The position numbers and the translations under genes are program-made. DNA of 36,039 bases from Komarekiella atlantica HA4396-MV6 (GTDB taxonomy: Bacteria > Cyanobacteriota > Cyanobacteriia > Cyanobacteriales > Nostocaceae). The stretch is from positions 1-36,039 of the forward strand of contig JAHHHK010000049.1 in assembly GCA_019359395.1 (NCBI GenBank), read 5' to 3'. The notes under the pieces are model-generated. The model did not search any database and had not been told where the DNA came from. It was given only the letters and a program-made list of their open reading frames with translations. Shown here one piece after another: positions 8,015 to 35,873 of this stretch. Within the stretch, counting starts at the first letter, position 1, and each line of letters opens with the position of its first letter.

Positions 8015-8593
8015 TCAGAAAGGGATATCGAATAGGAATTCGTAATCATCAAGATTTTGCTGTGGATTGTCTGGATCTTCAGCCCACCTCTGAGGATTGT
8101 CTAGGATATATTGTCGGATGTGATCCAAGGATTTTTGATCCCGGCTAATGTGTTCGTAAAAGTTGCGTTGCCAGATTGATTGCCCTTTGGTGTGCCAAAT
8201 AACATTAATGCTTTTGCTGACAGCGCTTTTATAGCTACCAATTACGGTTGAGATAGAACCGGGTACAGGTTTGCCAAATTGTTCTCTTGTAGGGGCACGG
8301 CATTGCCATGCCCCTACAGACGTGTTAGTAATTACCAATACCCCATGTAGATGATTAGGCATTACCACAAAAGTATCTAATTCAATGTGCGGAAAATGAT
8401 CGGGAATTGCCTCCCAGCAGTTGAAGGCAATATGACCTAAATAATTTAATTGCATTTCGCCCTTGACCACGTTGCCAAATAAACACTGCCGCCCGTGTGT
8501 GCAAAGCGTAATAAAATAGGCTCCTAGTTGGGTATAGTCATATCTTTTTAGGCGAATCGAACGACGGTGGTGTATTCGCGGGTCGTAAGGCAT
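8015..8593 (-). CDS. REP-associated tyrosine transposase (RAYT)
   Basis: A 192-residue Y1-type transposase. The N-terminal basic segment (HHRRSIRLKRYDY) precedes Y.VTLCT-like strand FITLCTHGRQCLFG; the metal-binding motif is the HLH form MPNHLHGVLVI; WQRNFYEHISRD precedes the catalytic-helix motif YILDNPQRW, whose Tyr is the expected nucleophile. These features define the RAYT branch, which moves or maintains REP palindromes. Matching palindromes lie directly at both sides (7980-8008, 8639-8664). A third copy is inside the gene (8289-8317) and is read in frame as VGAWQCRAPT. The catalytic motifs are all present, so the gene may still be active. Confidence 0.92.
   Translation of the reverse strand: MPYDPRIHHRRSIRLKRYDYTQLGAYFITLCTHGRQCLFGNVVKGEMQLNYLGHIAFNCWEAIPDHFPHIELDTFVVMPNHLHGVLVITNTSVGAWQCRAPTREQFGKPVPGSISTVIGSYKSAVSKSINVIWHTKGQSIWQRNFYEHISRDQKSLDHIRQYILDNPQRWAEDPDNPQQNLDDYEFLFDIPF
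8289..8317. repeat. REP palindrome inside the RAYT coding sequence
   Basis: The same 29 bases as at 7980-8008, read in frame on the minus strand to give about ten residues (VGAWQCRAPT) between the HLH motif and the conserved STVIGSYKSAVS segment. The frame is preserved on both sides. Confidence 0.9.
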
Positions 8594-8739: not shown

Positions 8740-11145
8740 ATGACAAATCAATCCTCCCCAAAAATTCCGTCTTGCACTTGGAATCGTCCCATCGGTTTAG
8801 GCTGGGATAAGCCTTATACCGTCCGCTACGCTAGTAATATTGATGATGGCCCTTGGCATGGTATGCCTCTAGGTGGCTTCGGTGCAGGTTGCATCGGTCG
8901 TTCTTCACGGGGAGACTTTAATCTGTGGCACATTGATGGCGGTGAACATATCTTCAAAAATATCCCCGCCTGTCAATTCAGTGTATTTGAGTCTCATGGT
9001 GCATCTTCCCAAGCCTACGCTTTGTGTACGCAAGCGCCTGATGATGGTATTCTGCAAGCTTGGCACTGGTATCCGACACTTCCCGGTACAGAGGGGACGG
9101 GCAATTATCATGCGCTATATCCCCGTAGCTGGTTTGTGTATGAAAATGTATTTCAAGCACAGTTAACTTGTGAACAGTTTTCCCCAGTTTGGGCAGGCAA
9201 TTACCAAGAAACTAGTTACCCTGTGGCGGTGTTTCTCTGGAATGCTCATAACCCTACAGATGCACCTATTACTCTTAGCATTATGCTCACCTGGCAAAAT
9301 ATGGTGGGCTGGTTTACTAACGCTGTTAAATCCCCCCAAGTGCGGGTGCGCGATGATGGTAGTCCGGTTTACGAATACCAACCACGCTGGGGTGAAAGTC
9401 AAGGGAATTATAACCAGATTGTTGAAAATACACAACACTTTGGCTGTGTTTTCAGTCGGGTTGGTAGTGATGCTTTACAGGAAGGGGATGGAACGTGGTG
9501 TGTTGCTACGCCCAAACATCCGCAGGTGGAAGTATTTCATCACACTAGGTGGAATCCTGTGGGAATGGGTGATGATTTGTGGCAAAGTTTTGCTCAAGAT
9601 GGCTCTTTGCCTAATTATCTAGATGCAAATCCAGCTGTAGAAGGTGAACAGTTAGGGGCTGCGATCGCAATTCGTTTTACTCTCCAACCAGGGGAAACTC
9701 TCGAAATCCCCTTCGTACTGGCTTGGGATTTACCGATCACAGAATTTGCCGCCGGGGTTAACTATTACCGCAGATATACAGACTTTTTTGGTAATGATGG
9801 TAATAATGCCTGGGCGATCGCATCTACTGCTCTACAAGAATATCAAAGTTGGCGATCGCAGATTCAAAACTGGCAACAACCCATTCTCGAACGGGAAGAC
9901 TTACCTTCTTGGTTTAAGATGGCTCTATTTAATGAGCTTTACGACCTCACTAGCGGTGGTACTCTCTGGAGTGCTGCATCAGAACTTGACCCCATCGGTC
10001 AGTTTGCAGTATTAGAGTGCTTAGATTACCGCTGGTATGAAAGTTTAGATGTGCGATTGTATGGCTCTTTTGCCCTGCTGATGCTGTTTCCAGAATTAGA
10101 AAAATCGGTGATGCGGGCATTTGCACGAGCAATTCCCCAAGGTGATGATACTCCTCGAATAATTGGCTATTACTTGACAATCAAGGCAGAAAGTCCGATC
10201 GCAGTTCGCAAAGTTGCAGGTGCAACACCCCACGATTTGGGCGCACCCAATGAACACGTTTGGGAAAAAACTAACTACACCAGTTATCAAGATTGCAATT
10301 TATGGAAGGATTTAGGTAGTGATTTTGTATTGCAAGTATACCGAGATTTTCTGCTCACGGGTGCTGACGATGTGGAATTCTTAGCAGACTGCTGGGATGC
10401 AATTGTTCAAACTCTCGACTATTTGAAAACCTTTGACTTAGATGGCGATGGCATTCCCGAAAATTCTGGTGCGCCTGATCAAACTTTTGATGATTGGCGG
10501 TTACAGGGCGTAAGTGCTTATTGTGGTGGGTTGTGGTTAGCAGCGCTACAAGCAGCGATCGCCATCAGTGAAGTTTTATTAACGCACCGTAGAGGTAACA
10601 CAGCGGAGTTGGCGGTACAAAAATCCACCTATGAAGCTTGGTTAGAACAATCTCGCCCAATCTACGACAAAAAACTCTGGAATGGTCAATATTACAAACT
10701 CGACAGCGAGAGTGGTTCCGATGTGGTAATGGCAGATCAGTTGTGCGGCCAATTCTACGCCCGACTCCTGGATTTACCAGATATTGTACCGAGCGATCGC
10801 GCTCTCTGTGCCTTGAAAACTGTTTATGATGCTTGCTTTGTGAAATTCTGCCAAGGTGAGTTTGGGGCTGCTAATGGTGTTCGTCCCGACGGTTCACCAG
10901 AAAACCCCAAAGCGACTCATCCCTTGGAAGTCTGGACGGGAATTAACTTTGGGCTTGCAGCTTTTCTAATGCAAATGGGAATGAAGGATGAAGCATTTAA
11001 GTTGACACAAGCTGTGGTCAAACAAATTTACGACAATGGGCTGCAATTTCGCACACCTGAAGCTATCACCGCTGCTGGTACTTTCCGTGCTAGTACTTAC
11101 CTGCGAGCAATGGCAATTTGGGCAATTTACTTAACCATTAAGTAA
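8740..11145 (+). CDS. GH116 glycosidase (bile acid beta-glucosidase / GBA2-like)
   Basis: An 801-residue enzyme, the normal length for bacterial GH116. The N-terminal beta-rich domain begins with PLGGFGAGCIGRS.RGDF..WH, typical of the GBA2 N-domain. The C-terminal (alpha/alpha)6 barrel has LFNELYDL.SGGT.W, then LECLDYRWYESLDVR.YGSF (about 425-443), and DGDGIPENSGAPDQTFDDW (568-586) followed by SAYCGGLWLAAL. In this family the nucleophile Glu and acid/base Asp lie in the second and third of these regions. Substrates are beta-glucosides, including glucosylceramide in animals; cyanobacterial substrates are uncertain. There is no signal peptide, so it should be cytoplasmic. It ends with an ordinary barrel tail (TFRASTYLRAMAIWAI). 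Confidence 0.92.
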   Translation: MTNQSSPKIPSCTWNRPIGLGWDKPYTVRYASNIDDGPWHGMPLGGFGAGCIGRSSRGDFNLWHIDGGEHIFKNIPACQFSVFESHGASSQAYALCTQAPDDGILQAWHWYPTLPGTEGTGNYHALYPRSWFVYENVFQAQLTCEQFSPVWAGNYQETSYPVAVFLWNAHNPTDAPITLSIMLTWQNMVGWFTNAVKSPQVRVRDDGSPVYEYQPRWGESQGNYNQIVENTQHFGCVFSRVGSDALQEGDGTWCVATPKHPQVEVFHHTRWNPVGMGDDLWQSFAQDGSLPNYLDANPAVEGEQLGAAIAIRFTLQPGETLEIPFVLAWDLPITEFAAGVNYYRRYTDFFGNDGNNAWAIASTALQEYQSWRSQIQNWQQPILEREDLPSWFKMALFNELYDLTSGGTLWSAASELDPIGQFAVLECLDYRWYESLDVRLYGSFALLMLFPELEKSVMRAFARAIPQGDDTPRIIGYYLTIKAESPIAVRKVAGATPHDLGAPNEHVWEKTNYTSYQDCNLWKDLGSDFVLQVYRDFLLTGADDVEFLADCWDAIVQTLDYLKTFDLDGDGIPENSGAPDQTFDDWRLQGVSAYCGGLWLAALQAAIAISEVLLTHRRGNTAELAVQKSTYEAWLEQSRPIYDKKLWNGQYYKLDSESGSDVVMADQLCGQFYARLLDLPDIVPSDRALCALKTVYDACFVKFCQGEFGAANGVRPDGSPENPKATHPLEVWTGINFGLAAFLMQMGMKDEAFKLTQAVVKQIYDNGLQFRTPEAITAAGTFRASTYLRAMAIWAIYLTIK

Positions 11146-12012
11146 TAGCGCATCAACCAAGAGCATTTTAAATCTCAACAGTGGTCAGTTGTAATTACTA
11201 CTAACCACTGCTGATGAATTTTTAGAGAGTAGAGGTTCTAGGCATTTGCTCACAACGCTCTTAAGCTTGACGGTTACGTTATTGGTGGATTCAATCGCTG
11301 GGTAATCTAACTTTAAATTTGCAACTTTAGATACAAATAGATGTACATAGATGTTTTAATATATGCGCTTCAAAATGTACCTGATGTTCATCTAACAAAG
11401 CAGAGATTACATCTGAGATTTTATTTTCCGGGTGTTTCCGGAAACGAAAGAAAATTTAAGTAATGGTAAGAGTTGAAAGATTTAGAACTCCAGACTACTG
11501 GTTAAAAAAATGCCAATATCACTAGAACCAACCCTAAAAATTCCTAATATTTCCCAGATTATGTTGACAATTGACAAATTTCAACTGGAAAAAATTGACT
11601 TGCAAGCAATCTCAACTTAAAAATTAGGACAATTTAAGAAATGAATACTGGATAAAGTATGAAATGTTTATTGACGACAAGAGTCCAAGGCAGATGACTA
11701 ATACTTTGGTATAAACAGTAAACAGTTGGGGGATTTAAATCCGCCAGATAGCGCCTCGCACTAATCGGCTTTAGGTTATTAGTTTTCAGTTACAAGTACT
11801 CGCCCCCTAGTGGTTTTCCTTAAACCCAATTATCTTGATTGATAACTGTTTACCGTTTACTGATTACTGTTAAAAACACGGTTAATTGCGTTTTACAAAG
11901 GCTGTTGGAATGATGTAAAACCCAATCGGTCAGATATTTATCAACTTTTTTGCCCTCTAACTGCTCGCCTCACACAAGTTAAGAAGCTTACCCAAAAAAC
12001 CGAAATTAAACC
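11146..12012. other. intergenic region upstream of the hetC remnant
   Basis: No gene seen. It holds a hairpin (11179-11210) and a perfect 12-base palindrome GGATTTAAATCC (11731-11742) within apparently inserted GC-richer sequence. The expected NtcA site of hetC genes (GTA-N8-TAC) was not found here by eye. Confidence 0.6.
11179..11210 (+). terminator. probable terminator of the GH116 gene
   Basis: CAGTGGTCAGT at 11179-11189 pairs with ACTAACCACTG at 11200-11210 (one mismatch), followed about 10 bases later by a T-run (AATTTTTA). It lies 33 bases after the stop codon. The T-run is not immediately adjacent, so efficiency is uncertain. Confidence 0.5.
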
Positions 12013-12642
12013 ATGAACTCCTCTTCGTCATTAAGAGTTCAGGGAGGGCTGAAATATACAAGTAATCAGCAGTCTCCCACTCCGAAAGTTGCTATCCTCA
12101 AATTTTTGAGGTTAGTAATAGGGGATACAAGCCTAGAGTCAGAATTTAGCCAAGTTTGGGTTTTCTATGAGTTTCAACTTGGTGACGAATTGGCTAACTA
12201 CAGTTTAGATGGGATTGAAAATAGTAGCAGTTTTCTTTACCTAAAACATCTTCCTAACCCAAAATCAAACAGTCTGGTAGCCATTCGGGCTGCACCAGTT
12301 GAATTCCAAAACAGGAACAAGCCTCGTTCAATAACTAAATTGTGGCGTCCTTATGCCCTTTTTCAACAGCAAAATTCATTAGATTGTAGCGCGGCGTGTT
12401 TGGCAACGGTTAGCCAATACTGGGACACCCACTTGAGCCTGGATAGCCTGTGGAACTTAGCGGAGGTAAAACGTATAGGTGCGTTTTTCCAGAGTTTAGC
12501 AGAAGCAGCCCAAACTTTAGGATATGAAGTGCTATCGGTAAGGGCGAGCTTGAGTAAGCTGGACTCATATTATAACCCTTGGATAGCTCATTGGCAAGAA
12601 ACTCAGTTAGAGGCGATCGCGTATTGCGTGCTCACGCGATAG
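12013..12642 (+). pseudogene. hetC: truncated hetC-like C39 peptidase/ABC exporter remnant
   Basis: A 209-codon frame. Residues about 26-78 (VAILKFLRLVIGD.SLESEF..VW) look like the start of the N-terminal regulatory domain of large cyanobacterial peptidase/ABC exporters. Residues 112-195 are a C39 peptidase domain: QQQNSLDCSAACLATVSQYW with the nucleophile Cys125, then SLAEAAQTLGYEVLSVRASL and NPWIAHW. Right after HW the match stops; the normal HYVVV-type segment carrying the catalytic His, the later Asp, and all membrane and ATPase domains are missing. The break is next to a GCGATCGC-rich stretch. HetC is such an exporter and its gene precedes hetP in Anabaena, as here, so this is most simply a decayed hetC or hetC paralogue. 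The full family is about 1000 residues. Confidence 0.65.
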
Positions 12643-13140
12643 CTAAGCGATGGTTCTCGTACCCAGTGTTTGAAGCATTGCTTTAAAAGCACGGCGTCAA
12701 TACCTACTGGACATCAGGAACTCATGAGCAATTAGCAGTTTTTATTACTACTTACCTCCATGACAAGTGCATCTGTGATTTTACTTTCATCATTGGATTA
12801 GGTTTAAGAAATAGACATAAATAATCTTTCATATTGTTTAGTTGGATACAAGCCATAAATTAGCTAAGTTTACACAGTTTAAATTGCTATATCTTTATTG
12901 GTTAAAACATCCACATTAAGATATTTTAATATATTTCCTGATCGCTAGATAAAAAACAAATATTAATACCATAAATTCATAAACTCAACTATTTATCATC
13001 TGTTATTATTGACTATTACTCATAAAATAATCAGATAAAGTTGCTGTGGTTTATCAAATATTTATAGCTATAAGCCTTGTCAAAAAAGGCTTTTTTGTAT
13101 GCACAATACTTTTTTATGTATGATCTGTAAAAATATTTTT

Positions 13141-13278
13141 AGGACTTACGCAAAAACCCTCTTAAACTCTCATTTCTCCGTGACCTCAGCGCCTCTGTGG
13201 TACCCTTCGGGAAGCCACTTCTCTACGAGACGCTCCGCGAACGTGTCTACGATTTTCCGTAACCCATGCGTAAGTCCT
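13141..13278. mobile_element. MITE-like element, 138 bp
   Basis: Perfect 12-base terminal inverted repeats AGGACTTACGCA (13141-13152) and TGCGTAAGTCCT (13267-13278). The interior holds a second common Nostoc repeat (TTCGGGAAG..CTCTACGAGACG, about 13202-13256), so one repeat is nested in another. No transposase; no clear target duplication visible. It sits about 130 bases upstream of the HetR-type palindrome. Confidence 0.75.
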
Positions 13279-13411
13279 GATTTTCAATAACTATGTTCAG
13301 TAATAGTTTTTCTAATGTTAACTATCTCTCTATCAAATTGAAGGGTGTTACACCTCATAGTTAATAACAAATTTTCTAGTATATTAAAGATAATCAAAGT
13401 TCCAAGTAATA

Positions 13412-13440
13412 GTAACCGAGGGGTAAGACCCCCCATAAAT
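13412..13440 (+). promoter_or_regulatory. probable HetR-binding palindrome upstream of hetP
   Basis: The core GAGGGGTAAGACCCCCC (13418-13434) has inverted halves GGGGT and ACCCC around three bases. The known HetR target upstream of hetP in Anabaena has the same architecture, GAGGGGTCTAACCCCTC, and the flanks also agree (GTA..CG before, CAT after). The site is about 505 bases before the hetP start, consistent with the long leader reported for hetP. The site differs from the Anabaena core at the three central bases' left side and one C/T on the right arm. Confidence 0.72.
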
Positions 13441-13634
13441 TTACAAAAATGGACAAAGTTAAAAGTTGCACAATACATAAGGAAGTTTTTAAATATGTTC
13501 AGTAGATTTGATTCATGAAGATGCTAAATTAGCAGATGAACTTAAGAGCAATAACATAGTATAAATACGAATAATGCTCTTAATTTTCAAACATAAATAA
13601 TTTTTCTCTACTAGGCTAAAAAAGGTGCAGCTTT

Positions 13635-13667
13635 ACCGGATTCTTAATCAGGAAGAAATCTTATATG
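13635..13667 (+). promoter_or_regulatory. weak candidate promoter for hetP
   Basis: ACCGGA at 13635-13640 resembles the TCCGGA -35 motif reported for heterocyst-specific (DIF) promoters, followed by TATATG at 13662-13667. The spacing of 21 is longer than usual, so this is only a suggestion. Confidence 0.25.
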
Positions 13668-13938
13668 CAGGTGGTCAATTAGAGAAAATTAACTGAACTA
13701 AAAGTTTGAAAGTTCAAATAGGACAAAACTGCATCTATTAAAAATCACACCGAGGTTTTGGTCTTGCCAGTGGCACGACAACACAAGAAGTAAATTTTTA
13801 CCTTTCACTCACTAACAAACAAAAGCTACAGCCGAGAACCAACCAGCAGCAATGTCCTTGATTAATCGAGGTAAATCTGGGGAATTACGGTTGAGCAGCC
13901 AACAAACTTAATTAAAAACAGCAAGGCCACTAAATACT

Positions 13939-14277
13939 ATGAATCAAAACGTTTCTGGCATTAGTAGCAACTTAGACAAGACAATGAAAAATCAACATTT
14001 TGATAAAGTAGTAGAAGCAATTCTTGCCGGAAAGTATTCCTGGGCGTGTGTTTTAATGCTGCGATTTGCTGGCTACAATCCTCTACATTACATTCCCTAC
14101 CGCACATACAACAGATTGCTCAAAGAAAATACTCAAGCTAGTAGGTCAAATCAACAGCAAAATGAGAATATAAAAATAGTCAAACATTCTAATGATTCCA
14201 GGTCTGATAGTAATGTTTCACCAAGCTGCTTAAGCAAAATTAAAGATTTAGCTTATCTTGAAGTAGTTGGAAAGTAA
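13939..14277 (+). CDS. hetP: heterocyst commitment protein HetP
   Basis: A 112-residue protein with the HetP core [19 protein letters not shown] followed by [26 protein letters not shown] (about residues 20-67), which is highly characteristic of HetP and its paralogues. The C-terminal 45 residues are Asn/Ser-rich and variable, as in the family; the protein is somewhat shorter than Anabaena HetP. HetP acts in the differentiating cell downstream of HetR and drives commitment to heterocyst formation. The gene follows a hetC-like remnant and a HetR-type palindrome, the arrangement expected of the original hetC-hetP locus rather than of the dispersed paralogues. Confidence 0.93.
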
Positions 14278-14356
14278 AAAACAAAAATTCCTGGTGGCAG
14301 TCTAGATTCAGAATAATTTAGGTGAGGACATCATCTATAAATCAGCAATTGAAACT

Positions 14357-14388
14357 CAATACGCTTGGTGTTAGCGCCAAGTGTATTG
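14357..14388 (+). terminator. hairpin downstream of hetP
   Basis: CAATACGCTTGG (14357-14368) pairs with CCAAGTGTATTG (14377-14388) with one G.T pair, and the stem continues through GTG/CGC around a TTAG loop: about 14 pairs. No T-run follows, so it may be a 3' stabilising structure rather than a classical terminator. Confidence 0.5.
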
Positions 14389-15143
14389 ACTTATGGAATT
14401 ATTAAATTAATATTCTAGATAAAATGTAATTATTGTTACATATAACTACACAATTGCGTCATAGCCAACAAAGTATTATACATGAGCATGAGATGTAATA
14501 AATTTCATCAGCTATCTTCAAAAAGCTGCCAAAATGGCAAGTATATACTGATGAAATACTTTAAATTAAAAATAACAACTTAAACAAAAAGACAGAGGTA
14601 CTTGGCAAACAAATTAATTTTCTACTTATGACTGTGAAATACATCAAACTGATTGCTAAAACACTCAGTATTTCATGGATTAGATAGCTTCTACACCAAA
14701 ACCGACGATCTAACTGTTGCTGTTGGTGGTTCTTTTTCCGAGGAAGTCTGAGCAAATAAAACTTGGAGCGACTGCTTCCCAGAAGTCCGGGCGGAACTTC
14801 GTAAGTCAATCCATTTGTATGTCTTCCGTCGGTGGCAAACGGCAAAAGCATAGCTTGTAAAACTTCCTACAATAAGGGTTGTGTTGCTTGAGTTTAAAAA
14901 ACTCACTTTTAGCACCAGCACTAAGAACGGAAATAGAAAAGTAACGGTTAAATTGTTGTTATGGCTTGTAGAATTTAAAGCTAATACACTTCTGTTTTGG
15001 CTAACGTAATCCTTGTCCTCCTAACCGGGATTATGTCTGCTTTGTAAATTGGCAATTTATATAACAACTACTGGAAGCTATTCAAATTTTATAGCTTCCA
15101 GCTTTTTAATAAAGATGGTATCAATTAGATGGTACATTATATT

Positions 15144-15175
15144 GCGATCGCCTACGTCCCGCCGTAAGCGATCGC
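15144..15175. repeat. HIP1-flanked palindrome
   Basis: GCGATCGCCTACG and CGTAAGCGATCGC arms around TCCCGC. Two HIP1 octamers form the ends of a near-perfect inverted repeat, a common small intergenic element of Nostoc genomes. Confidence 0.75.
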
Positions 15176-15323
15176 ACCCTTACTAAAATTTAAAAGTAAT
15201 TCATCGATTAATTAAATTTACTAAAAATATAATAAATCCGTAGTACTATATTACAGGCATTAACTATCTTCAGCTATCTCTGATTGTTAGCGCTCCTAAA
15301 TTTACAATCAGTGAGAACATACC

Positions 15324-15962
15324 GTGAGCCTAACTCTTTATTTCCTTCGTCATGGACAGACAGAATGCAGTCGTAGCAATTCTTTTTGTGGTTCTATAGA
15401 TGCAGAACTTACTCCAGAAGGCTTGGAGATGGCAGAAGCTTTTGCCGCTGTATACAGTTCTATATCTTGGACAGCAATATTTTCTAGTCCTATGCGCCGA
15501 ACTGTAGCGACAGCAAAACCCCTATGTGCAGCCATCGGGATGGAACCACAACTGAGGGATGGTTTAAAGGAAATTAACTATGGCCAGTGGGAAGGAAAAA
15601 CGCCAGAAATAATTAGCCGTGAATATCATGATGATTATATTCGCTGGTCAGCCGACCCAGCTTGGTACGCTCCAACTGGTGGAGAAATGGCAGTAACAAT
15701 TGCTGCTCGTGCTTTACAGGTAATTGAAGAAATTAAGCAGTCTTACAGCAGTGGCAATGTTTTAGTTGTTGCTCATAAGGCAACTATCAGAATTATTTTG
15801 TGTAGTTTGCTAGGAATTGATGTGGGACGCTTTCGGTTTCGTTTGGGATGCCCTGTTGGTTCAGTCAGTATTGTAGAATTTGGCTCACATGGCCCACTAT
15901 TGAAGGCTTTGGCAGACCGCACTCATTTAGATGAGCGTTTGCGAAATTTACCAGGAACATAA
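15324..15962 (+). CDS. histidine phosphatase family protein (phosphoglycerate mutase-like)
   Basis: A 212-residue cytoplasmic phosphatase. The catalytic RHG motif is LRHGQTE (His10); SSPMRRT supplies the second Arg (Arg58/59); the general acid is Glu83 in LKEINYGQWEG; the second His is His151 in VVAHKATIR. This is the cofactor-dependent phosphoglycerate mutase/acid phosphatase branch; GQWEG and lack of mutase inserts favour a phosphatase. The start is GTG: no ATG lies near the beginning of the conserved YFLRHG strand and an in-frame extension upstream is not supported. Substrate unknown. Confidence 0.87.
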   Translation: MSLTLYFLRHGQTECSRSNSFCGSIDAELTPEGLEMAEAFAAVYSSISWTAIFSSPMRRTVATAKPLCAAIGMEPQLRDGLKEINYGQWEGKTPEIISREYHDDYIRWSADPAWYAPTGGEMAVTIAARALQVIEEIKQSYSSGNVLVVAHKATIRIILCSLLGIDVGRFRFRLGCPVGSVSIVEFGSHGPLLKALADRTHLDERLRNLPGT

Positions 15963-15978
15963 GGTAAGAGTCAGCAGT

Positions 15979-16114
15979 AGAGACGCGATTCATCGCGTCT
16001 GTACAGGATTCAGGAGACACGATTCATCACGTCTGTACAGGATTCAGGAGACACGATTCATCGCGTCTTTACAGGATTCAGGAGACGCGATTCATCGCGT
16101 CTTTACAGGATTCA
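15979..16114. repeat. 34-bp palindromic tandem repeat, four units
   Basis: Units begin at 15979, 16013, 16047 and 16081. Each contains the hairpin AGACGCGATTCATCGCGTCT (variants AGACACGATTCATCACGTCT) followed by TTACAGGATTCAGG. Some units carry compensating or single changes in the stem (CACGAT..ATCACG). The array starts 17 bases after the histidine phosphatase stop. Confidence 0.9.
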
Positions 16115-16254
16115 GTTATTCTTCCCCTGCTCTCCCTCACTCGTTGGCTCGGTATATTTGCAGAAAACGTTTATCCCAATTTTTAAAATATATAACACGA
16201 CGATTGTAGCTCGTCGTAGACATCGCAGTTCTGAATGACTAGCTTGTAATGACC

Positions 16255-16443
16255 AACATCGCGACATTCATAAGCAACATCGTGATATTCATTGTTAACA
16301 TCGCGATTTTTATTATCAATATCGCGACATTCATAAGCAACATCGCGATATTCATTGTTAACATCGCGATAGTGCTTATCAACACCGTGATATTCATCAT
16401 TAACATCGCGACATTTGTTCTTAATATCACGATATTTGGGCTT
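16255..16443. repeat. 21-bp minisatellite, nine units with 63-bp higher order
   Basis: Nine contiguous 21-base units of the form AA(C/T)ATCGCGA.ATTCAT.... Units 1, 4 and 7-8 differ from their neighbours in a pattern that repeats every three units: types ending CATAAGC, CATTGTT and TTATTATC/CTTATC alternate, giving a 63-base higher-order period. Both strands stay open: the plus strand would encode heptads such as NIATFIS/NIAIFIV, the minus strand MLTMNIA-type heptads. The plus frame has an ATG at 16249 but no ribosome site. Confidence 0.9.
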
Positions 16444-16481
16444 ATGCTTATGCGATCGCTAGCAATGCTTAAACAAAACTT

Positions 16482-16637
16482 ATGAATGAATAACACGCAC
16501 TAGTTGAAAAGCTGCCAGAACCTCAACTTCTTCAAGAAGTCGGGGATCTAAATCAACCTAGCTCATCCCGCGCTGCCCAAATTGCCTCGCGATACTCTCC
16601 AGCGCACTCCTCACCCGTCGCCTCGCGCCAAATGGCT
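16482..16637 (+). pseudogene. DUF2281-like antitoxin remnant with a nonsense codon
   Basis: Reading from ATG at 16482 gives MNE, a TAA stop, then in the same frame HALVEKLPEPQLLQEVGDL, which resembles the N terminus of DUF2281 proteins (often antitoxins: LLEKL..LP...QQEVLDF). After about 25 residues the match is lost, and a TGA ends the frame at 16637. The TAA could derive from a CAA glutamine codon. Small size makes the assignment tentative. Confidence 0.35.
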
Positions 16638-35243: not shown

Positions 35244-35873
35244 GTCCGGTTAATTAGTTACGATGCTCATCCTCACACCAAAACTCAACTTTTGCATCTG
35301 GATAAGCAGCTTGAATTTGTTCTACTTCGATGGCGAGTTTTTTTTTCCAGGCTTCTTGCTCGAAATAATCACTTTTTGTGTGGCATGGCCGAGGAACTCT
35401 CAGTCTAAAACTCATCTGCCGCAATATCTCCCATCCCCTCTGTCTGCTGATATGAGTTCCTGTCATTTCGCTTAACCAATCTGCCACCTTCCTGCCATTC
35501 CATAATCCTCCATCTGGTGCTTTTTCTTGTAACGCCTGCCATAACTGTGCTTGCTGGATATCATCTACCAAAGGCTGTTTACCTTGGTTTGAGTCTCTGC
35601 GATCGCCTAAACCTTCCACCCCTAATTCGTTGTATCTTTTTACCAATGCGTATATCCATGTTCTGCTGTAGCCAGTTATTTCCTCTACTTCTTCGGTTTT
35701 TTTTCCTTGTGCTAATAACCAAATAATCTGATACTGACGGCTTTCTACCCCATCACTAGCTTGACGGTAACTTTGTTCTAGCTTTTCAATACTTAGATGT
35801 GTAGCTACACCAATTCGTTTCGGCATTGCTCATCCTTGCACTCACTACTTTTATCGGAAGTAATTAACCGGAC
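35244..35873. mobile_element. internally deleted IS630-family element
   Basis: Perfect 13-base terminal inverted repeats GTCCGGTTAATTA (35244-35256) and TAATTAACCGGAC (35861-35873) enclose one truncated transposase frame. At about 630 bp it is roughly half the normal IS630 length. The outer flanks (ATAT..., ...ATAT) may extend the imperfect repeat; a TA duplication is not clear. Confidence 0.82.
35254..35826 (-). CDS. truncated IS630 transposase (DNA-binding half)
   Basis: A 190-residue frame with the IS630 N-terminal part: two helix-turn-helix units (QIIWLLAQGKKTEEVEEITGYSRTWIYALVKRYNELGVEGL), the winged HTH region (LWNGRKVADWLSEMTGTHISRQRGWEILRQM) and the start of the catalytic fold (PDAKVEFWCEDEHR). 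The last motif contains the first Asp of the DDE triad; the protein then stops after one more residue, at the terminal repeat. The other two catalytic residues are lost, so it cannot transpose alone but may still bind the element ends. ATG at 35826. Confidence 0.88.
   Translation of the reverse strand: MPKRIGVATHLSIEKLEQSYRQASDGVESRQYQIIWLLAQGKKTEEVEEITGYSRTWIYALVKRYNELGVEGLGDRRDSNQGKQPLVDDIQQAQLWQALQEKAPDGGLWNGRKVADWLSEMTGTHISRQRGWEILRQMSFRLRVPRPCHTKSDYFEQEAWKKKLAIEVEQIQAAYPDAKVEFWCEDEHRN

Follow-up and report, generated by a model that had tools for sequence, protein, structure and literature searches.

Decay of hetC beside an intact hetP in Komarekiella atlantica, with an upstream element retained across hetC-less relatives

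Introduction

HetC is a peptidase-containing ABC exporter which Anabaena PCC 7120 needs to finish its heterocysts, and to our knowledge no cargo of HetC has been established. The locus described here raises the question of how a cyanobacterium comes to possess a hetC that stops within its peptidase domain directly upstream of an intact hetP, and what the loss means for the control of hetP. The stretch of DNA analyzed, called the window below, is the whole contig C43 (36,039 bases) of the draft genome of Komarekiella atlantica HA4396-MV6 (7.78 Mb, 80 contigs, 99.86% complete). HetC counts as essential for heterocysts. Its repeated loss where hetR is kept offers natural experiments on its function, on whatever replaces it and on its former cargo.

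Results

Identity of the frame upstream of hetP

The features of the locus are collected in Table 1. A first-pass annotation of the window had described a hetC-like C39 peptidase frame upstream of a clear hetP, and both were found, at 12013-12642 and 13939-14277; hetP scores well above the cut-off of its family model. By Pfam, Peptidase_C39 occupies residues 116-197 of the frame and covers profile positions 4-85 of 133 only. The Q...DCSAAC segment is present and the segment after PWIAHW, which carries the His, is missing, so that the frame does end inside the peptidase domain. Membrane and ABC ATPase domains are absent from the frame by Pfam, as had been stated, and there is no Pfam match to the cNMP-binding domain either. 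The intact HetC of Desmonostoc vinosum (L053) has C39, ABC_membrane and ABC_tran matches, and its cNMP match lies just below the cut-off (27.2 versus 27.5 bits).

Table 1. Features of the hetC-hetP locus in the window.
Feature	Position	Strand	Basis or remark
Conserved upstream neighbour, 801 aa, used for the locus tree	8740..11145	+	Alignment, locus tree
Conserved hetC-upstream element with DIF1 motif TCCGGA; conservation extends to about 11555	11400..11509	+	Cross-genome alignment
Element core TTTATTTTCCGGGTGTTTCCGGAA	11420-11443	+	About 0.6 kb upstream of the former hetC start
hetC remnant, 209-aa open frame from the native start	12013..12642	+	Sequence alignment and Pfam
HetC residues 1-77: N-terminal extension and start of the cNMP region	12013..12243	+	Alignment with HetC-type proteins
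Truncated C39 peptidase, profile 4-85 of 133, Cys present, His segment missing	12358..12603	+	Pfam
Frameshifted C39 tail, GDRVLRAHAIAKRWFSYPVFEALL-stop	12610..12686	+	Other-frame translation and alignment
HetR-site-like inverted repeat GAGGGGTAAGACCCCCC upstream of hetP	13418..13434	+	Sequence comparison
hetP, intact, 112 aa	13939..14277	+	NCBIfam HetP_family NF037966, 119 bits, cut-off 45

The frame joins, in frame, HetC residues 1-77 and the first two thirds of the C39 domain. These two pieces (residues 1-77 and about 83-198 of the remnant) align with intact HetC, where they lie some 220 residues further apart, and the remnant is therefore not a simple truncation. The in-frame internal deletion runs from HetC residue 77 to about 294-309 and has thus taken most of the cNMP domain; it was missed in the first-pass annotation, as was the loss throughout the genus described below. 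Since 12610-12686 still codes for the HetC-like GDRVLRAHAIAKRWFSYPVFEALL-stop in another frame, the His segment was taken by an out-of-frame deletion that, of five aligned remnant rows, only the window shows.

Seventy-five exporters chosen by their C39 motif were compared with the remnant. Those of HetC type whose N-terminus is complete align over both pieces, at up to 71% in 1-77 and at up to 65% in about 83-198; the remaining ones align over the C39 piece alone, at no more than 46% identity. A chance likeness to HetC is thereby excluded. C39 domains are common to bacteriocin-type exporters and several are present in this genome, which could suggest that the frame derives from such an exporter unrelated to HetC. 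That origin is refuted, and its probability is negligible: the N-terminal 77 residues, which make up the HetC-type extension, match HetC-type proteins alone among the exporters examined, the locus is syntenic, and the best match is HetC. This is the original hetC locus.

Likeness to HetC of Nostoc/Anabaena PCC 7120 (alr2817) was judged through the intact HetC of relatives rather than the alr2817 sequence itself. The remnant resembles it in the N-terminal extension, in a C39 start with Q and Cys, and in its position upstream of hetP on the same strand. It differs in its near-neutral evolution and in having lost the membrane and ATPase domains altogether, together with the catalytic His and most of the cNMP domain. 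According to passages of PMC10986499, the cNMP domain and the ATPase Glu are required in PCC 7120 HetC, as is the Cys-His pair, whose two residues were changed together. The window keeps the Cys without the His, L050 has lost the catalytic Cys instead, and the Nostoc-A remnant forms are missing the Cys segment, all of which argues for a dead exporter. The disabling deletions and the relaxed selection reported below together confirm, by sequence comparison, the frame 12013-12642 as a hetC pseudogene.

The window is a single contig of an 80-contig draft, and an assembly or sequencing error in a strain with an intact hetC was therefore weighed. Related remnants, and no intact hetC, occur in four separately deposited near genomes, and the internal deletion is shared with them; the error is thus refuted, with next to no probability left to it.

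Other in-frame shortened hetC forms were seen in L083 (Cylindrospermum FACHB-282) and in L092 and L098 (Nostoc sp. 106C and T09). They run from the native start to about the native end with 291, 349 and 339 aa, respectively, and the form of L083 retains most of the ATPase domain (profile 14-137 of 137).

C39 exporters and heterocyst genes in the genome

A profile search of the genome gave eight places that match C39 above the cut-off, including the remnant locus. No second hetC was found in the genome, the best other place being 42% identical to the remnant frame over the C39 part alone. The claim of a decayed hetC without a second copy thus stands, and what falls is the view of it as a condition special to this strain, since it is common to the genus and recurrent in the family. 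Three of the C39 exporters adjoin what we take to be a HlyD-like gene, two of these presumably together with a regulator-like frame.

In L080-L082, L085-L087, L089, L090, L092-L094, L100 and others, a further C39 exporter of about 1015-1040 aa, roughly 38-47% identical to HetC, is encoded about 3-8 kb downstream of hetP, also where hetC is lost. In the genome of the window such exporters are located elsewhere, on contigs C11, C24 and C56.

The genome has a 307-aa hetR frame and a 518-aa nifD frame without interruption. The earlier suggestion that the strain may make no heterocysts is not supported by these frames, nor by the hetC-free heterocyst formers described in passages of PMC2821919 and PMC3610870. 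Passages of PMC8527099 describe heterocytes in two Komarekiella species, represented by other strains of unknown hetC status, which in the wording of the paper "could grow" when combined nitrogen was lacking. Heterocyst differentiation in hetC-less lineages would run without HetC.

Recurrent loss of hetC

Judged by hetP, the named genomes closest to that of the window are Nostoc sp. B(2019), Komarekiella delphini-convector, Nostoc sp. MG11 and Aff. Roholtiella sp. LEGE 12411, and the label Komarekiella-type rests on them. Among the best 80 of 152 loci, 34 named loci are of Komarekiella- or Nostoc-type (L049-L052, L054-L079, L084, L091, L095, L112). An intact hetC lies beside hetP in 0 of 32 of these, L079 and L095 being left out for too little upstream DNA.

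The family was surveyed with the HetC N-terminus (320 residues) as query, which matched in 111 of 217 genomes and was unmatched in 106. The matches include fragments and some weak paralogue matches, so intact hetC is present in fewer than 111 genomes. Group g7, with 53 genomes, has no intact hetC and eight N-terminal fragments; it is called Nostoc here on account of frames of equal length in named Nostoc loci (for example G190/L065, G206/L060, G212/L058). In the genus of the window intact hetC is found in none of five genomes and an N-terminal fragment in four. HetR_C was found in 213 of the 217 genomes and in 104 of the 106 without a HetC match, the two misses being 72 and 85% complete. NifD gave a match in all 217 genomes, above the cut-off in 171.

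A locus tree was built on the conserved 801-aa upstream gene with 87 rows, after removal of L141, L145 and L149 as duplicates; other near-identical pairs were retained, and most Anabaena-type hetC-plus loci have too little of this gene to be included. On this tree the state of hetC needs seven changes, at least five of which are forced by starred branches. Loss of hetC is thus recurrent in the family. Both states occur within group g41, where G080, G129 and G040 have long hetC frames (that of G040 with one TAG within the match) and G103 and G117 are unmatched; G103 retains the element core upstream of hetP. Such a group, with both states, belongs among the natural experiments mentioned above. 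The 801-aa neighbour itself is presumably of the glucosylceramidase type, a name that the profile search did not confirm.

For Cylindrospermopsis raciborskii CS-505, passages of PMC2821919 report hetC missing, and passages of PMC3610870 do so for Nodularia spumigena CCY9414; both strains form heterocysts. Unlike in those passages, a remnant is still in place here, the loss is traced over 217 genomes, and an upstream element is described. No report of hetC loss throughout Nostoc was found in the open-access literature, to which the search was confined.

The candidate co-lost partner patC (asr2819) was rejected, its primer sequences being unmatched within four substitutions in any of 101 loci. 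Clustering of small ORFs around hetP gave mostly antisense or in-gene frames. With no asr2819 match and uninformative clusters, no profile of a HetC substrate was obtained.

Selection on the remnants

Codon models gave an omega of 0.79 for four Komarekiella-type remnants (199 columns; 2 delta lnL 1.2 against omega = 1) and of 1.07 for five Nostoc remnants that share one junction (259 columns; 2 delta lnL 0.2), and neither differs from 1. The hetP genes of the same strains gave 0.045 and 0.12, with 2 delta lnL of 46 and 56 to set against the 1.2 and 0.2 of the remnants; hetP of the Komarekiella-type set that includes the window is thus under purifying selection. Two sets of intact hetC gave 0.34 and 0.235 (2 delta lnL 272 and 660). 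The pair L092/L098 gave 0.735, not different from 1. Simple counts yield lower ratios, of 0.50-0.61, in the Komarekiella-type rows and 0.44-1.18 in the Nostoc rows. Omega near 1 indicates that constraint at the protein level is weak or gone, and evolution of the remnants is near-neutral by the codon models.

Some of the reading frames are more persistent than this would lead one to expect. From the native start, 13 of 18 hetC-minus loci stay in frame for at least 163 aa and 5 stop within 84. In neutral simulations at least four of five Nostoc-A rows were stop-free in 1 of 2000 runs, and all four Komarekiella-type rows in 3 of 2000. Pairwise, stop-free outcomes numbered 4 (L092/L098), 11 (L060/L065) and 54 (L058/L071) of 5000, and for the window with L050 they were not rare (623 of 5000). 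The simulations take as ancestor a consensus sequence or, for a pair, one of its two members, ignore frameshifts and count L061 and L049 over their in-frame part only, and the groups were chosen after the loci had been seen. A pseudogene frame should be no more open than neutral decay predicts; the tree simulations and the other three pairs depart from this expectation and the window/L050 pair does not. We read the more frequent openness of some remnant frames as a real oddity, for which simple decay gives no account, and not as proof of a mini-protein.

The short frame could otherwise be read as a mini-HetC that works: a small protein built of the N-terminal extension and part of the C39 domain, held open by selection for a new or regulatory function. 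The 13 long frames from the native ATG and the rarity of open frames in the simulations of the two trees and of L092/L098 speak for it. It is nevertheless improbable, since omega is indistinguishable from 1 in the Komarekiella-type and Nostoc-A sets and in the L092/L098 pair, the pieces retained differ between lineages, the frame is wholly lost in near relatives, and open frames are not rare in the simulation of the window with L050.

A conserved element upstream of the lost hetC start

The core of the element is the sole place in the genome within three mismatches of TTTATTTTCCGGGTGTTTCCGGAA (control 0). With four candidates scored per genome, the 110-nt element has one match each in 119 of 217 family genomes and is unmatched in 98. 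It is present in 52 of the 53 g7 genomes, the remaining one being 72% complete, and in all five genomes of the window's genus. Over 33 Nostoc and Komarekiella-type rows, none with an intact hetC, conservation is 0.96 at 11420-11475 and 0.86 at 11476-11555, with 0.46 and 0.37 in the flanks. A rearrangement in L077 has its breakpoint directly behind the core, which it spares. Another 18 loci without intact hetC were chosen because the element occurs in their genomes; in these it precedes hetP by 1589-2777 bp on the same strand.

Within three mismatches the core is found upstream of hetP in 41 of 52 hetC-minus loci and in 20 of 49 hetC-plus loci, three of the latter being duplicates. Of the 11 hetC-minus loci without it, two have too little DNA and two others, L084 and L093, match the element by BLAST. 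Nine Anabaena-type hetC-plus loci (L130, L131, L133-L138, L140) have a GTAN8TAC site in the hetC upstream region and the core about 100 bp behind it. A different TCCGGA-bearing element stands upstream of hetC in Scytonema-type loci (L080, L081, L087), and it is retained in L085 and in the Brasilonema-type loci L110, L119 and L121, where hetC is lost. The element of the window probably formerly switched hetC on.

TCCGGA is the DIF1 motif of the hetR, patS, patX and nsiR promoters, as given in passages of PMC7377430. It is present and conserved in the element. The element resembles the DIF1 promoters of those passages in carrying TCCGGA upstream of a heterocyst gene locus, and differs from them, in the window, in a second TTTCCGG 11 bp upstream, and in a longer conserved block around it; we regard the element as a putative promoter. 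A retained element with a DIF1 motif upstream of a lost start seems to be new, and no report of one was found in the open-access literature, the range of our search.

Gain of DIF1 as a general cause of hetC loss was considered and rejected. The core is without the strict TCCGGA in L092, L098, L124 and L168-L170, all without intact hetC, so DIF1 is not needed for the loss, and the strict motif is present in the hetC-plus loci L053, L082 and L144. A small ORF in the element (MVRVE...) was likewise rejected as a coding gene, since in 41 loci with its start pattern it ends after 5 to 69 codons and its stops in different places show that it is not kept as such.

Instead, the element might serve the upstream 801-aa gene, or a small RNA of its own whose promoter and 5' end it would form, and play no part in hetP expression. 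We consider this possible though rather unlikely. Its distance from hetP in loci without intact hetC (about 0.95-3.4 kb) would fit, as would the HetR-type site that hetP often has of its own, and DIF1 promoters also drive the small RNA nsiR according to the same passages of PMC7377430. Against a small RNA, 11000-15400 has no Rfam match at E up to 1, the fold of 11470-11555 over the 33 rows is weak at -0.7 kcal/mol, although shuffled columns reach -0.01 with an s.d. of 0.09, and conservation peaks in the promoter-like 56 bp rather than in the stretch downstream.

Control of hetP and proposed explanation

The inverted repeat upstream of hetP was recognized by the HetR site sequence for PCC 7120 in a passage of PMC4192349. 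With a HetR-type site of its own, hetP may not need the element. Passages of PMC4133259 report for PCC 7120 that extra hetP expression leads to over-differentiation, that a hetR mutant forms heterocyst-like cells under ectopic hetP, and that a hetC mutant differentiates once patS is inactivated; bypass routes thus exist.

We propose, with a probability of roughly 0.8 for the explanation as a whole, that hetC is a pseudogene here and that hetP and the element were retained, a transcript from the element reaching hetP and making HetC dispensable. The alignments show that an in-frame deletion common to the window and its close kin took out most of the cNMP domain, that all that followed the C39 domain was lost, and that a further out-of-frame deletion in this strain took the catalytic His segment. 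At the same locus in several lineages hetC has decayed or vanished while hetP stayed, in most of them together with the element. The element would be a promoter, and hetP would be driven both from it and from its own HetR-bound promoter. HetP supplied through the element would make HetC dispensable, and the element may survive because it still starts a transcript that reaches hetP. That the element now feeds hetP is what we infer from its retention, and it amounts to a precise, testable claim on hetP control in hetC-free Nostoc.

A more far-reaching version holds that the promoter outlived its gene: in the Nostoc-Komarekiella lineage and its kin the element took over hetP as its chief target, HetC thereby became dispensable, hetC was then lost many times, and in some lineages the former coding region turned into a translated leader. 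It is doubtful in this full form. If it applied, the open frame of the leader, and not its amino-acid sequence, would be under selection.

Other features of the window and related loci

An ORF of 185-204 aa that starts M(K)(Q/K)IIR..AVET occurs between the element and hetP in loci without hetC (L160-L163, L165, L171, L172, L174, L175), at about -900 to -260 from hetP. A similar start was seen in L142, and the ORF is absent from the window. Within the interval between hetC and hetP of the window, the stretch 13141-13278 lies between inverted ends, AGGACTTACGCA and TGCGTAAGTCCT, and resembles a small mobile element. The frames at 8015-8593 and 35254-35826, the second near the contig end, are what we take to be transposase-like. 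Finally, 15931-16500 is repetitive, with DAIHRV/FTGF-coding units followed by an array open on both strands (NIAIFIINIA-like).
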